64,000 bases of DNA, taken from assembly GCA_016930175.1 (NCBI GenBank), contig JAFGHJ010000013.1, positions 62,001 through 126,000 on the forward strand. Direction: 5' to 3'. Position numbers and translations under genes: made by a program. This DNA comes from Caldifarciminota bacterium (GTDB lineage: Bacteria; Hydrothermota; UBA3072). The notes below the pieces were generated by a model. The model was given only the letters and a program-made list of their open reading frames with translations, made no database searches and was not told the DNA's origin. This document shows, one piece after another, positions 17,880 through 40,902 of this stretch (position 1 is its first letter; the number at the start of each line of letters is the position of its first letter).

Positions 17880-20675
17880 CTATTTTACCAGTACAACCTT
17901 ATTTATTTTGATGAATTTTTTCTTATTCTCTTCCATCCTGACGAAGTACACGCCTGCCGGTTTGCCGCTCATATCTATCTTCCCTGAATAGAAGCCTGCG
18001 GGCTTTTCTTCTGAAAGCTCTTTTATCTTCGTTCCTTTTATATCGTACACCTCAAGTTTGAGCTTAGCCTTTTCGGGAAGGGCGTATTTGATATCAAGCT
18101 GATTACCTACTGTTATTCCTTTAATATTGAAAGAATAAACCTCGGGCAGTTCGGGTGTAGGTATGGCTGTAACAGAGACGAAGGAAAATACAGCGTCGCT
18201 GGTGTCCGCCGGACTTCCGCTTGTATCGGATATTATCACAAGGCAGCTATCTGAAGTTGTATCGGGTATTGTCCAGAAATAGACCCCGGTATCGGGCATC
18301 TCAGCAATCACGTCTAACCAGCTCGAACCATTGTTTATAGAATACTCGATTTTGACCCTGCCGCTTGTACCAGTTGAAGTCCAGGTAATATAATAACTAT
18401 AACCTCTTCCCCAGTCTTCTCCGCCGTTTGGAGCCGTAACCGTTATATATGGGATAGGGGAGATTTTGAATATCGCATCACTGGTATCCGCCAGACTTCC
18501 GTTTGTATCGGCGATGCGCAAAAGGCAGCTATCTGAGGGTGTATCGGGTATTGTCCAGGGATAAACCCCTGTATCGGGTATCCCGGCAATCACGTCCGAC
18601 CAGCTCGAACCGCTGTCGGTCGAATATTGGATTAGGACACCTCCGCTTACGCCGTAAGAAATCCAGGTGACATTGTGAATACTATCTACCTCGAAGTCTT
18701 CTCCGCCGTTGGGAGAGGTAACTGTTATGTATGGAATGGGTGAAATCTTAAATATAGCATCACATGTATCCGATGGGCTTCCGATTGTATCGGTTATACG
18801 AAGAAGACAACTATCCGAAGGTGTGTCTGGTATCGTCCAGGGATAAACTCCTGTGTCGGGTATCCCGGCAATCACGTCCGACCAGCTTGAACCATTGTTG
18901 GTCGAATATTCGATTCTAACACCGCCGCTGGTACCGCCTGAAGTCCAGGTGACGTTGTGAACACTATCTACATGAAAATCTTCTCCGCCATTGGGGGATG
19001 TGACAGTTAAAGAAATGTCGGGCATTTCGACTTTTCCCCAACCGTATACATTATCTTTTCCTGATGCGCCCAGATCGACCGTGCAATTCGTATATAGATA
19101 ATCCCGGATTTCGCTGTTATTATATCCGGGAAATCGTGATTTAATTAAAGCACAGACTCCTGCTGTATGCGGGGATGATAAAGAAGTACCGGACCAGTAT
19201 CCGTAGGCGTAACTGTTGCAATTGTCGGGTGCCGCAACGTCTGGTTTTGTTCTTCCGTCTGTTGTCGGTCCCTGAGAACTGAAGGTTTCCTGAGGGCCGG
19301 AGGTATAATTGATTCTATTAATAGCTCCAACGGTTACAACATCCGTAATCGTCCCCGGATCAGTCAGACTGCTTGAATTTGTGTGATAGCCGAAGCTTCT
19401 ACTCAAATCGAATAATGTAAAATCCCAATCATCACTTGTAGAATACTCTTTTACTGCAACACCATACATCCCATTTGCATATGGGTTTGTGTAAACTATT
19501 GTTTCTTCCGGATATGAAGATCCGGTTTGTCTTTCTGTAGAACTGGCAACAATTGACCAATGTGGTGTTGGAATGGTGTCATATCTTGCCAGGTAAAGGT
19601 CGTAGTCCTGATTCGAATATATATAGTCATCCCAGTTCAGGGTAATTATAATGGCTTCCCCGGGGTCGTGAAGCCACACGTGAGTAGGATCGGGACCGAT
19701 TGGGTTTACATTACCTGATCCAAAAGCATGATAACCAGATCCGTCATCTGCGAATATCGATCTATAATGGTCTTCGGCTGAGTTACCTGCCGAATTTACC
19801 CACAGAATTCCATTGCTTAATGCGTTATTGACAATATTGCATATGAATCCTGTTCCGTCATAGTAACCTCCCGTGTTGAACCATCCCATTGAATGATTTA
19901 CGATGTCTACGCCATTGCTGATACAGGTATCTTTTGCGTTTTCAAAATCGGTTACATCTGCTATCTTGTATAAATAAAATTCTGCGTTAGGGACCAGATC
20001 AAAAATAGCTTCAGCTACTGCTGTCCCGTGAGGAGTTCCTGTTTGAAGCCCGGTTCCGGTAAAGTCATGACTTGTATAAGATGACGGTATATCACCTTCG
20101 GTTTGCGCGTTAATTAAAGACGTAAATCCACCGTCGATAACGGCTACTTTAACGCCTGAACCCGAATCACCTACTGAGTGCCAATGGTCGGCATTCATAA
20201 GGGCAACACCTTCACTGGTGACTGCATGCTCCTTTGGTCTCATCGGGGGTATGATTTCTGCAAAATCTTTAATAGAGGTTGCTACATTTTCAAGCTCGCT
20301 TATTGGTATTTCAACTCTCATGGAGTGGTTCGCTTTTGCTTGAATTCTCGAACCGAAAGCTCTTAAATTATTTCCATCGATGTTTGCCGTTGTAATACCG
20401 GGTTTCGTTAGAACAGTTACGACTACTCTGTCTTCAACAAGTTGCAGGTCGGATTGTCTGGCAAATTGTCTATATTCTTTTTTTTCGGCATAAAGTTTGT
20501 AAAGTCTGTCTAAACTCGAGGAAAGATTTTTTATTTGTTTGGACTTATGGTCCATTTTGGTGGGTGGCTCGACTCGCAAATCATTGATTTTAATTGTTTT
20601 AAAATCTCCGGCAAAAACCGGATGGATATATATAACCGTGGTAAAAAGTATTAATATAAATATACTTTTGTTCAG
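17880..20675 (-). CDS. Secreted subtilisin-like protease with T9SS-type tail; CTG start
   Basis: 931 aa if started at CTG 20675. That codon lies 5 nt after AAGGAG (20681-20686), an in-frame TAA is four codons upstream, and it opens a perfect signal peptide (LNKSIFILILFTTVIYIHPVFA). The first conventional start, TTG 20579, would delete the signal. A propeptide-like region is followed by an S8 catalytic domain with Asp (VAVIDGGF), His (GTPHGTAVAEAI), the Asn oxyanion residue (WVNSAGNSA) and Ser (GTSLSSPHTAGV). Then come three 94-aa Ig-like repeats (PNGGEDF...VTW...IEYSTNNGSSW...DTGVYPWTIPDT) encoded with a 282-bp period, and a C-terminal sorting domain (LKLEVYDIKGTKIKEL...GVYFVRM). Likely an extracellular or surface protease. 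Confidence 0.9.
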   Translation of the reverse strand: MNKSIFILILFTTVIYIHPVFAGDFKTIKINDLRVEPPTKMDHKSKQIKNLSSSLDRLYKLYAEKKEYRQFARQSDLQLVEDRVVVTVLTKPGITTANIDGNNLRAFGSRIQAKANHSMRVEIPISELENVATSIKDFAEIIPPMRPKEHAVTSEGVALMNADHWHSVGDSGSGVKVAVIDGGFTSLINAQTEGDIPSSYTSHDFTGTGLQTGTPHGTAVAEAIFDLVPNAEFYLYKIADVTDFENAKDTCISNGVDIVNHSMGWFNTGGYYDGTGFICNIVNNALSNGILWVNSAGNSAEDHYRSIFADDGSGYHAFGSGNVNPIGPDPTHVWLHDPGEAIIITLNWDDYIYSNQDYDLYLARYDTIPTPHWSIVASSTERQTGSSYPEETIVYTNPYANGMYGVAVKEYSTSDDWDFTLFDLSRSFGYHTNSSSLTDPGTITDVVTVGAINRINYTSGPQETFSSQGPTTDGRTKPDVAAPDNCNSYAYGYWSGTSLSSPHTAGVCALIKSRFPGYNNSEIRDYLYTNCTVDLGASGKDNVYGWGKVEMPDISLTVTSPNGGEDFHVDSVHNVTWTSGGTSGGVRIEYSTNNGSSWSDVIAGIPDTGVYPWTIPDTPSDSCLLRITDTIGSPSDTCDAIFKISPIPYITVTSPNGGEDFEVDSIHNVTWISYGVSGGVLIQYSTDSGSSWSDVIAGIPDTGVYPWTIPDTPSDSCLLRIADTNGSLADTSDAIFKISPIPYITVTAPNGGEDWGRGYSYYITWTSTGTSGRVKIEYSINNGSSWLDVIAEMPDTGVYFWTIPDTTSDSCLVIISDTSGSPADTSDAVFSFVSVTAIPTPELPEVYSFNIKGITVGNQLDIKYALPEKAKLKLEVYDIKGTKIKELSEEKPAGFYSGKIDMSGKPAGVYFVRMEENKKKFIKINKVVLVK
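18190..19010 (-). repeat. Three tandem 282-bp repeats inside the subtilase gene
   Basis: Related text recurs at 18241, 18523 and 18805 (AGGCAGCTAT, AGGCAGCTAT, AGACAACTAT), an exact 282-bp period encoding the 94-aa Ig-like repeats. The first two units are closest to each other. Confidence 0.8.
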
Positions 20676-20680
20676 CTTTT

Positions 20681-20686
20681 CTCCTT
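20681..20686 (-). promoter_or_regulatory. Shine-Dalgarno that fixes the CTG start of the subtilase
   Basis: AAGGAG on the minus strand, 5 nt ahead of CTG 20673-20675. The local arrangement (AAGGAGAAAAGCTG) is nearly the same as the one before the TTG start of rplY (AGGAGGAAAAGTTG). Confidence 0.7.
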
Positions 20687-20756
20687 ATCTAATAGCAAAT
20701 AGTAATTAGATTTTTTTAATAAGCAAAAATGGATAATCCTTTCCAAATGCGTAGTA

Positions 20757-21109: not shown

Positions 21110-21125
21110 AATTTGAGGTTTGAAA

Positions 21126-21512
21126 ATGGGTAAAGAAAAACCAGTGTATAAAACATTTGTGGAGACGAGTTTCTCGGCTGCGCATCAGTTAAAAGGTTAT
21201 AAGGGCGCGTGCGGAGAGCTGCATGGTCACACCTGGACCGTACTGGCTGAAGTGGAAACGGGTAAACTTGATAAATTGGGTATGACTATCGATTTTAAGG
21301 ACTTAAAGAGAAAATTAGATTCTGTTGTACGCGAATTTGATCACCGCTGTATTAATCAGAGGAAACCTTTTATCAAGGAAAATCCTACCGCTGAAAATCT
21401 TGCCAGGTATATTTACCTGAAAATGGGACAAATTTTATCTGACGATATTAAGATTATTGAAGTGACGGTTTTAGAATCTCCGAATTACGGAGTTAAGTAT
21501 TCGGAGAGATGA
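21126..21512 (+). CDS. queD: 6-carboxytetrahydropterin synthase
   Basis: 128 aa from ATG 21126, preceded by GAGG (21115-21118). It converts dihydroneopterin triphosphate to 6-carboxy-5,6,7,8-tetrahydropterin, the second step to 7-deazaguanines. The zinc-binding His of SAAHQL and of ELHGHTW, and the catalytic Cys of KGACGELHGH, are present, as are DFKDLKRKLDSVVREFDHRCIN and the C-terminal E in VTVLESPNYGVKY. First gene of queD-queE-queC; the next gene starts 1 nt after its stop. Confidence 0.95.
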   Translation: MGKEKPVYKTFVETSFSAAHQLKGYKGACGELHGHTWTVLAEVETGKLDKLGMTIDFKDLKRKLDSVVREFDHRCINQRKPFIKENPTAENLARYIYLKMGQILSDDIKIIEVTVLESPNYGVKYSER

Positions 21513-21513
21513 T

Positions 21514-22152
21514 TTGCTTAAGGTTAACGAAATCTTTTATTCTATTCAGGGTGAATCTTCTTTTTCGGGAATCCCTTTTGTGTTTGTAAGACTGACCGGC
21601 TGCAATCTCAGATGCTCTTATTGTGATACAAAATATGCCTACGAAGAAGGAGAAGAGCTCACGGTCGAGCAGATTCTAAAAAAAATCAAGAAATATAAAT
21701 GCCGTTATGTTGAAATTACCGGGGGAGAACCTCTGCTTCAGGAGGAAACTCCATTTCTGGTGGATTCTCTGGTCGATAAAGGTTTTAACGTTCTTGTTGA
21801 AACAAACGGAACTAAAGATATAAGTGTTATATCCGATAAGGCTGCAATAATTATGGACATAAAGTGTCCTTCGAGCGGAGAAGTGGATAAAGTCGATTGG
21901 GAAAATATAAAAAGGCTCGATAAAAAAGACGAAGTTAAGTTTGTAATCGCTGAAAAATCAGATTACGTTTGGGCAAAGAAAATAATAGCCGAGAGGGACC
22001 TGACTTATAAAGCTAAGGTTCTATTGTCTCCCGTTCAAGAAAAATTGAGACCGTATTTACTTGCCGAATGGATTTTGAAAGATAATCTAAAGGTCCGTTT
22101 TCAGCTTCAATTACATAAAATTTTGTGGCCTGAAGAGAAAAGGGGGAGGTAA
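21514..22152 (+). CDS. queE: 7-carboxy-7-deazaguanine synthase (radical SAM)
   Basis: 212 aa from TTG 21514, with GGAGA just upstream. QueE rearranges 6-carboxytetrahydropterin to 7-carboxy-7-deazaguanine using SAM and a 4Fe-4S cluster. The cluster motif is CNLRCSYCD (CX3CX2C), preceded by the family signature [20 protein letters not shown] and followed by [10 protein letters not shown]. Cytoplasmic, mid-operon, 1 nt from each neighbour. Confidence 0.95.
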
Positions 22153-22153
22153 G

Positions 22154-22846
22154 TTGGAAAAAAAAGCGATTGTTTTGTTGAGCGGCGGTATAGATTCCGC
22201 GACCACGCTCGCGATTGCAAAAGATTCAGGATATGAAGTATACGCGATCAGTTTTCGTTATGGTCAGCGACATCATTTTGAGATTGAGGCAGCAAAGAAA
22301 ATTGCCATTGCTATGGGTGTAAACAGGCACTTGATTATGGATATCGACTTAGCTTCTTTTGGCGGTTCTGCATTGACTGATGATATACCGGTTCCGAAGA
22401 GAGGAGAAGTCGAAGATATAGGAAAAGAAATCCCCGTTACTTACGTTCCGGCTCGAAATATAATTCTTTTAAGTCTTGCTATCGGTTGGGCTGAAGTTAT
22501 GGGTGTGTCCGATATATTTATTGGAGTTAATGTGATCGATTATTCCGGCTATCCCGATTGCAGGTCCGAATTTATTGAGGCTTTTGAAAAAGCAGCAAAT
22601 CTTGGAACAAAAAATGGGGTAGAGGGTAAGAGAATCAACATTCATACTCCCCTTATAACACTTTCAAAAGCCGAAATAATAAAGAAAGGTGTGATATTTG
22701 GGGTCGACTATAGCTTAACCCATAGTTGCTATGATCCCGACGAGAAGGGACGAGCCTGCGGCAAGTGTGATAGCTGTTTGTTGCGAAAAAAAGGATTTGC
22801 GGAAGCAGGTATCGAGGATCCGACTGTTTATACTTATATTGAGTAG
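22154..22846 (+). CDS. queC: 7-cyano-7-deazaguanine synthase
   Basis: 230 aa from TTG 22154, behind a very strong GGGGGAGG (22142-22149). QueC turns 7-carboxy-7-deazaguanine into preQ0 with ATP and ammonia. It has the PP-loop [11 protein letters not shown], the SFRYGQRH and [10 protein letters not shown] blocks and the zinc site C-x8-C-x2-C-x2-C ([17 protein letters not shown]). preQ0 can feed queuosine in tRNA or 7-deazaguanine DNA modification. The reductase QueF and the transglycosylase are not in this window, so the end product cannot be decided here. Confidence 0.95.
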
Positions 22847-39380: not shown

Positions 39381-39665
39381 TTATTTCTCCTTTACCACAA
39401 GAATATGTCTTAGTATGTTGTTGTTTTGACGCATGAATTCTTTAAGATTATTGATTTTTTCAGGATCTGCCTCAAAATTAATTACAGTGTAGAACCCTTT
39501 ATCATGTCCGTCAATTTCGTATGCGAGTTCTTTAATTCCCCATTCGTCTACTTTTTTAATTTTTGCTTTATTCTTTTCAAAGTACGCCTTTATTTCTTCT
39601 GTAATTTGTTTTGACTCTTCTTCTTTTTCTGGATTGATGATGAACGTGCATTCGTATTTTCTCAT
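39381..39665 (-). CDS. rpsF: 30S ribosomal protein S6
   Basis: 94 aa, the usual bacterial S6 length. Starts MRKYECTFIINPEKEEE and carries KKVDEWGIKELAYEIDGHDKGFYTVINFEADPEKI, the RNA-facing core, then the short C-terminal helix with NILRHILVVKEK. Overlaps pth by 4 nt (ATGA). Binds 16S rRNA with S18. Confidence 0.96.
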   Translation of the reverse strand: MRKYECTFIINPEKEEESKQITEEIKAYFEKNKAKIKKVDEWGIKELAYEIDGHDKGFYTVINFEADPEKINNLKEFMRQNNNILRHILVVKEK

Positions 39666-40231
39666 TTAACCTCCTTTTGATTCCCGTTAATTTTTGACAT
39701 AGCCACATCAATACTTTCATCTTTCCAAATGAAAACAGCTTCTTTAGCTTTTTTCAATATTTCGGGTATTGCTTTTTCTTCCTCTTTACTAAACTTCGAG
39801 AGTACCCAATCCGAAGTTTCATTATTTTCAGCATTTCCTATTCCGATTCGTAGGCGTGGTATATTTTCGCTATCAAGATGATATATTATAGATTGTAAAC
39901 CATTATGTCCGCCATCGCTTCCCTTGTTTCTTAACCTTAATTTACCGAAGGGTAAGTTTATATCATCGAGGACGATGAGAATATTTTCCAGGGAAAGCGA
40001 AAAGTCTTCATGTAATTCACGTACAGCGATTCCACTGTTATTCATAAAGGTTGTCGCGTAAGCCAGGATAAGATTTTCTTTTAGCGAATAGTAATAATGC
40101 CCTTTGCCAGGTTTAAACCTCAATTTTTTCTTCGAACAAATAAATTGTATTAGTCTTCCTCCAAGGTTATGCCTGGTTCCGATGTAAAGGGCTGAGGGAT
40201 TGCCAAGCCCTATAGCTGCACGATATTCTAT
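39662..40231 (-). CDS. pth: Peptidyl-tRNA hydrolase with an apparent AUA start
   Basis: 189 aa if started at ATA 40231. The frame from the first usual start (TTG 40123) would lack the first 36 residues, including conserved catalytic parts. The upstream stretch reads EYRAAIGLGNPSALYIGTRHNLGG, with the substrate Asn (GLGNP) and catalytic His (TRHNLG); Asp (LDDINLPFG) and Asn (GGHNGLQS) follow. GGAG (40240-40243) stands 8 nt before ATA, and ATA overlaps the TAG of rplY (ATAG), mirroring the ATGA overlaps seen elsewhere. There is no ATG, GTG or TTG in the right place. Pth releases tRNA from peptidyl-tRNA. A base error in the assembly is the main alternative. Confidence 0.9.
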   Translation of the reverse strand: MEYRAAIGLGNPSALYIGTRHNLGGRLIQFICSKKKLRFKPGKGHYYYSLKENLILAYATTFMNNSGIAVRELHEDFSLSLENILIVLDDINLPFGKLRLRNKGSDGGHNGLQSIIYHLDSENIPRLRIGIGNAENNETSDWVLSKFSKEEEKAIPEILKKAKEAVFIWKDESIDVAMSKINGNQKEVK

Positions 40232-40902
40232 TCGGCACTCTCCTTTTCTTTTTGTTCTTCTGCTTTTTTTACTACTTCTTCTCCCTCTTTTGCAATAACT
40301 TCTGGTTCCTCTGCTTCCTCACCTATTGCAATCTCTTCCTCAGCAGGTTTGACTTCTATGAGTTTTCTTGGAGATAGAATGTTTACGATAGTTGAAGAGG
40401 GGTCCTCTTCAACTTTAACACCTTCTGGTATTTGAAGGTCTTTAATGTGTATGGATTGTCCTATTTCAAGATTACTAACATCCACCACTATTTTTTCAGG
40501 TATATCTTTGGGTAAGCACCTGACTATTAAAGCCCTGTGTTCTAAATTTAATATTCCGCCTTCTTCTATGCCTTTAGCTTTGCCCTGAAGTTCAAGTATG
40601 ACGTGGACACTAACTTCTTCGTTTTCATGTATATGTTGAAAATCTACATGTAATAGTTTCTCATTTAGTGGGTTTCGGCTCACCTCGCGCATGAGTACCT
40701 GAAGTTTTTTCCCTTCGTAGTCTAGATTTAACAATGTCGCTTCGGAGTGCAGGGAGTGTAATACGTTTTTTAGTTCTTCTTCCTTAATCATTATTGGTCT
40801 GCTTTTTTCTCCGTGACCATAAATGATGCCAGGAATCCATCCCTCTTTTCTGAGATGATTGACTTTCCTACTTCCTAGTTCTGTTCGATCTTTTGCTTTC
40901 AA
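40228..40902 (-). CDS. rplY: 50S ribosomal protein L25 (CTC form)
   Basis: 224 aa from TTG 40902, five nt after AGGAGG. Residues 1-90 are the 5S-rRNA-binding L25 domain (RKVNHLRKEGWIPGIIYGHGEKSRPIMI); about 95-185 form the TL5/CTC C-terminal domain (VHVILELQGKAKGIEEGGILNLEHRALIVRCLPKDIP), and the end is a charged Glu/Lys-rich tail. The long form is found in Thermus and many other bacteria and may act as a general stress protein. Sits between prs and pth, as in Firmicutes. Confidence 0.95.
   Translation of the reverse strand: MKAKDRTELGSRKVNHLRKEGWIPGIIYGHGEKSRPIMIKEEELKNVLHSLHSEATLLNLDYEGKKLQVLMREVSRNPLNEKLLHVDFQHIHENEEVSVHVILELQGKAKGIEEGGILNLEHRALIVRCLPKDIPEKIVVDVSNLEIGQSIHIKDLQIPEGVKVEEDPSSTIVNILSPRKLIEVKPAEEEIAIGEEAEEPEVIAKEGEEVVKKAEEQKEKESAE
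40240..40243 (-). promoter_or_regulatory. Shine-Dalgarno serving the AUA start of pth
   Basis: GGAG on the minus strand within the last codons of rplY, 8 nt before ATA 40231. Confidence 0.55.

Follow-up and report, generated by a model that had tools for sequence, protein, structure and literature searches.

A probable CTG start in a subtilase gene and probable near-cognate starts that recur in a WOR-3 family

In textbooks, bacterial genes start at AUG, GUG or UUG, and the few exceptions are regulated. The AUU codons of infC and pcnB in Escherichia coli are weak starts under the control of IF3. Both of these AUU starts are conserved, and they are cited in PMC13009471 and PMC9845219. In Staphylococcus aureus, PMC13009471 gives conserved non-canonical starts for infC (AUA), cvfC1 (AUU), ccpN (AUA) and citZ (AUA), and near-cognate reporters there, in poor medium, reached about 10% of the AUG level. 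Annotated CUG makes up 0.024% of bacterial initiation codons (PMC11497404 and PMC9845219), and in E. coli a CUG start gave 0.86% of AUG expression (PMC11497404). In the lineage described here the start rules look looser than the textbook allows.

The window analysed is a stretch of 64,000 nucleotides from genome G000, and its features are collected in Table 1. It holds a subtilase that combines a Peptidase_S8 domain with Ig-like repeats, a C-terminal T9SS-type sorting domain (Por_Secre_tail) and a signal peptide. The translation matches PF00082 and contains VIDGG, HGTAV and GTSLSSP when read by eye, which we take to be the D, H and S motifs of Peptidase S8. The initial annotation had placed the start of this gene at CTG 20675, five nucleotides behind AAGGAG and four codons after an in-frame TAA, and direct reading of the minus strand bore this out (AGA TAA GGA GAA AAG CTG AAC AAA AGT ATA TTT). 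As it had also stated, the 32 codons from CTG to TTG 20579 are open, include no ATG, GTG or TTG, and encode a signal peptide, which by eye is typical and has a V-F-A cleavage site. In the census described below, the Shine-Dalgarno (SD) sequence scored as a 7-base match, TAAGGAG, at an aligned spacing of 4. This is the arrangement of a CUG-initiated gene, with CTG behind a properly spaced SD and a standard start out of reach. Ahead of the sorting domain, at 18200-19020 of the window, lie three Ig-like repeats that resemble one another and are each about 100 residues long (SPNGGEDF...NVTW...DTGVYPWTIPDTPSDSCLLRI), and stretches related to them occur elsewhere in the genome. Three consecutive queD-, queE- and queC-like genes, each with a TTG start, occupy 21120-22846.

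Table 1. Positions in the window of the features of the subtilase and pth loci
Feature	Position	Strand	Evidence
Secreted subtilase, 931 aa counted from CTG	17880..20675	-	Intact frame; Pfam PF00082 2.8e-27, PF18962 1.2e-07
Probable subtilase start codon CTG	20673..20675	-	SD spacing, open frame, paralogue and orthologue ATG exactly aligned
SD AAGGAG of subtilase	20681..20686	-	5 nt before CTG; read directly in sequence
In-frame stop TAA, four codons before subtilase CTG	20685..20687	-	Sequence reading
First standard in-frame subtilase start, TTG	20577..20579	-	Without SD; would cost the protein its signal peptide
Subtilase signal peptide (L/M)NKSIFILILFTTVIYIHPVFA, then GD	20610..20675	-	Translation; homologues have one too
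pth, peptidyl-tRNA hydrolase, from ATA	39662..40231	-	PF01195 8.6e-53; AUA in 6/6 family genomes
ATA start of pth, overlapping rplY stop TAG as ATAG	40229..40231	-	Sequence reading
SD AAGGAG of pth, 8 nt before ATA	40240..40245	-	Sequence reading
Presumed rplY, upstream of and overlapping pth	40228..40902	-	ORF list; overlap with pth

The subtilase was compared with a paralogue in the same genome (contig C28, locus L011; 65% identity) and with the orthologue of the sister species G001 (locus L010; 65% identity), the sole other genome of the genus compared for this gene. The paralogue reads GGAGGAGAA-ATG-AAC-AAA-AAA-ATA and the orthologue AAAGGAGGAAAA-ATG-CAT-AAA, and the SD and ATG of both align exactly onto the CTG. 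The start-codon comparison across relatives that the initial annotation had proposed thus found all three genes beginning at one position. That annotation had named homologues lacking the signal peptide as evidence against its proposal; both homologues have one (MNKKIFTLIIFSLLININLASA and MHKKIIMLFVLVVSVNYLFA, against (L/M)NKSIFILILFTTVIYIHPVFA in the CTG copy). Because the homologous SD and ATG sit exactly at the CTG and the signal peptide is retained, the start site is correctly placed. Translation from TTG 20579, with the signal-peptide-like stretch upstream left untranslated, would draw on a codon in common use as a start here (of 301 sampled genes in which an SD precedes a standard start, 54 use TTG), yet it is hardly credible, since this TTG has no SD and starting there would drop a signal peptide that both homologues carry and that proteins with a T9SS-type C-terminal domain need.

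The CTG copy is closer to the sister species than the ATG paralogue is (66.7% versus 59.2% identity to G001), and the comparisons among these genes gave dN of 0.24-0.27 and dS of 1.5-3.2; for the CTG copy against G001, over 549 aligned codons, dN was 0.27 and dS, near saturation, was 3.2. Judged by its intact frame, these dN/dS values and its closeness to G001, the gene is intact, under purifying selection and without visible decay. It could be argued that the start codon was lost by mutation and that the gene is a young pseudogene whose work is done by the ATG-started paralogue, particularly as CUG gave less than 1% of AUG expression in E. coli (PMC11497404), but 931 unbroken codons, a low dN/dS and the greater closeness to the sister-species orthologue make this very improbable. 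An error offers another route to the same observation. CTG at this position is known from one assembly, both homologues read have ATG there and a one-base change separates the two codons, so that the CTG might be an error in the consensus or else a minor strain variant in a gene that starts at ATG like its relatives. We consider this unlikely, since the same genome has near-cognate starts fixed in independent assemblies as well as a second single-gene case, ACG, and 0.02 to 0.2 errors would be expected in the roughly 1,800 start-codon bases of 595 genes at an assumed rate of 1e-5 to 1e-4 per base. Overall, the subtilase CTG start is probably real.

A second non-standard start had been noticed in the window, the AUA of pth, and it was confirmed at 40231-40229 behind AAGGAG. 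The gene upstream, named from its sequence, we take to be rplY, encoding a ribosomal protein L25-like product. We examined six genomes of the family, of which G000 and G001 form one genus and G002-G005 represent four others. In all six, pth has an AUA in the same position, preceded by a GAGGAG-like SD and overlapping the rplY stop as AUAG or AUAA, and because of this conservation the pth AUA is, on comparative grounds, not a base error. The start AUA is unanimous in the six genomes, where a single codon is kept in none of the 7 all-Ile columns of pth and in 7 of its 70 conserved columns, a unanimity partly forced by the overlapping rplY stop. The same type of pth occurs in named relatives, which are bins assigned to candidate division WOR-3, Ca. 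Stahlbacteria and TA06.

When 147 genomes of the phylum were searched, pth matched in 133, and 70 of these were read. In 10 of the 70 the stretch from the in-frame stop to the GLGN motif contained no ATG, GTG or TTG; these were all six family genomes, three from family f10 (AUAAUA) and G075 (AUC or CUG). G009 has as its sole standard codon a GTG lying one codon ahead of the motif, and an AUC stands behind AGAGGAGG; the remaining 59 have a standard codon further upstream in that stretch. In family f5 (G010-G014), pth matches were split over two places or contained stops, as if broken or frameshifted. A distant pth in a Bacillota MAG (JAAZIE010000098.1, locus L031) is also without ATG, GTG or TTG before GLGNP and begins near an ATT directly after an in-frame TAA.

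The gene for ribosomal protein S5, rpsE, has AUU behind AAGGAGG and overlapping the end of rplR in each of the six family genomes. No standard codon lies ahead of the S5 core in G002, G003 and G005, and in the other three a standard codon without an SD lies nine codons past the AUU. The AUU is unanimous in the family, which the other 4 all-Ile columns of rpsE are not, and it is partly fixed by the C-terminal Phe codon of the overlapping rplR. At 24 rpsE loci read outside the family a standard start, nearly always ATG, was at hand. A near-cognate codon conserved among relatives in the manner of infC is therefore found in pth and rpsE, each in six of six genomes, and was not found for the subtilase, where both homologues have ATG. 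The infC gene itself starts with AUU in both genomes read.

Further near-cognate starts were seen in genes with other functions. A HEAT-repeat protein starts at a near- or non-cognate codon in five of five genomes, namely AUA in G000 and G001 (the latter with an in-frame ATG about 16 codons upstream), AUC in G002 and G003 and GUA in G004. For a bacterial sugar transferase (PF02397), the AUA of G000 and the AUU of G001 are firm cases, and G002-G004 have either AUA or an upstream standard codon (in-frame ATG in G002 and G004, TTG in G003). The sequence ATGGAACT stands about 40-90 nt ahead of the sugar transferase start in five of five genomes (L142-L146); in G000 a short frame, possibly for a leader peptide, begins with it and terminates at a TAA overlapping the AUA. 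Two cases belong to G000, an exported beta-helix protein with a T9SS domain that starts at ACG (C35:78720) and a GGDEF protein that starts at AUU (C24:17024); close orthologues of these two were looked for and none was found, leaving them as single-genome cases. Upstream of the ACG gene, at about 78,760-78,860 of the same contig (L130), a T run follows a long inverted repeat rich in G+C (GGGGGATCAC ... GTGATCCCCCC), an arrangement that resembles a terminator or attenuator. G001 has in addition a lipoprotein-like frame with an AUU start. A trkH candidate with AUU (C35:34983) was dropped, as its relatives have a conserved ATG nine codons on.

The initial annotation had also suggested counting upstream extensions with good SDs over the whole genome. 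We ran such a census on 800 kb of G000 (34% of the genome; 595 genes), entering coding frames in which no standard start follows an SD of at least 5 bases, and scored as hits those with a codon one base from ATG that follows an SD of at least 6 bases at an aligned spacing of 4-9 and precedes the first standard codon by at least 5 codons; these thresholds were tightened after looser first passes and were not preset. Eight of the 595 genes qualified, and seven were credible: with domains assigned by Pfam, the hits were the subtilase (CTG), pth, the sugar transferase and the HEAT protein (AUA), rpsE and the GGDEF protein (AUU), the beta-helix protein (ACG) and one AAG. Seven more genes were flagged with other codons alone. 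The AAG hit, on C13, and the hits on other codons were judged to be chance, having a standard start with a plausible N-terminus just downstream or the SD as their sole support. Under the same rule, 400 kb of E. coli K-12 gave no hit among 319 genes. In G063, which belongs to another family of the phylum, 5 of 315 genes in 400 kb were flagged and two were credible, a gene starting at AUA (MAIIFDSHCHLND...) and one starting at AUU, which from their sequences we presume to be tatD and an SDR. Behind an SD, the surplus of near-cognate codons relative to other codons had an uncorrected Fisher p of 0.045 in G000 and 0.038 in G063, and is weak taken alone.

The initial annotation had attributed its two starts to relaxed start selection or base errors. 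The first part is supported by the recurrence of near-cognate starts, several of them fixed in independently assembled relatives, and the second fails for pth, whose AUA is conserved. We consider it likely from these comparisons that the subtilase CUG is one case of a lineage trait, near-cognate initiation in this WOR-3 family and in one or more further families of the phylum. In all six genomes the initiator tRNA has a CAU anticodon and the three G-C pairs, its first base is unpaired (C1 and U72 by eye), and decoding would therefore use the usual tRNA with one mismatch. A search of the six genomes for an initiator-type stem (GGG/CCC) with a non-CAU anticodon found none; GGGCTNNNAACCC matches with another triplet were not tRNAs by ARAGORN, and the palindromic GGGTTNNNAACCC matches were partly checked. 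The two initiator tRNA gene copies of G000 (C47:103909 and C26:48038) both lie at contig ends and are perhaps one gene at a repeat boundary. Both genomes of the genus encode IF3, which rules out its loss; two of its positions, presumably E. coli R99 and R129, are F and W here, a mere hint.

On the proposed mechanism, the subtilase would be translated from CUG 20675 under the guidance of a strong SD at close spacing and exported by its signal peptide. More generally, AUA, AUU and AUC, with CUG, ACG and GUA as single cases, may initiate with the ordinary CAU initiator tRNA and insert fMet, a strong SD or an overlap with an upstream stop codon putting the near-cognate codon in the P site. What the sequences show is where these codons lie, that they are conserved and that standard starts are absent; their use, the insertion of fMet and the role of IF3 are inferred. 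The genes fall into two classes. In pth, rpsE and tatD the codon overlaps an upstream stop, and a terminating ribosome could restart there; the subtilase, sugar transferase, HEAT, ACG, GGDEF, SDR and lipoprotein genes have their own leaders, in which the SD alone can place the codon. For the lineage, as distinct from the subtilase, the conserved starts may result from termination-reinitiation at the overlapping codon and not from a general relaxation of start selection. We give this somewhat less than an even chance: it accords with the overlaps AUAG in pth, AUUUUAA in rpsE and AUAG in G063 tatD, behind upstream frames of 227, 126 and 124 codons, whereas the seven other genes, the subtilase included, have no upstream frame of at least 50 codons ending near the start. 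The simplest common cause would be that a strong SD suffices and that IF3 proofreading of the start codon is either weaker here or serves as a control, as for infC, which has AUU in this lineage too. A broader form of this reading we put forward only tentatively: in much of phylum WOR-3 proofreading could be relaxed, with the SD placing the ribosome so that AUA, AUU, AUC, CUG, ACG and even GUA start proteins, the essential rpsE and pth having fixed such codons, and gene finders confined to ATG, GTG and TTG mis-calling or truncating about 1% of genes.

A family in which S5 always has AUU, Pth always has AUA and a protease probably has CUG would be a natural system for separating the share of the SD from that of IF3 and the initiator tRNA in start choice. 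There is also a practical consequence, in that gene callers limited to ATG, GTG and TTG would, in three of the six family genomes, cut 22 to 31 residues off S5, and would strip signal peptides from exported enzymes. Conserved AUU and AUA starts and rare CUG starts are known already, and the wider lineage pattern is a more interesting result than the subtilase CTG. In the open-access literature we found no report of an rpsE AUU, a pth AUA or odd starts in WOR-3, no near-cognate start fixed family-wide for a ribosomal protein or pth, and no set so large in one genome.

Compared with subtilases that carry a T9SS C-terminal sorting domain, the protein described here has the same Peptidase_S8 domain, Por_Secre_tail and signal peptide, and the start codon alone differs. 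As in annotated bacterial CUG starts, the CUG would be read by the CAU initiator tRNA; unlike them, it is backed by homologues that have ATG in this position. The lineage shares with E. coli infC and pcnB a conserved near-cognate start with a strong SD, including the AUU of infC itself, and differs in the genes concerned (pth, rpsE, the HEAT protein and the sugar transferase) and in codons that extend to AUA, AUC, GUA, CUG and ACG. There is a further parallel with the S. aureus set, in which AUA and AUU likewise stand behind strong SDs and are conserved among relatives; those starts were experimentally mapped and belong mostly to small or regulatory genes, whereas the starts described here were read from sequence and include those of an essential ribosomal protein and of pth.
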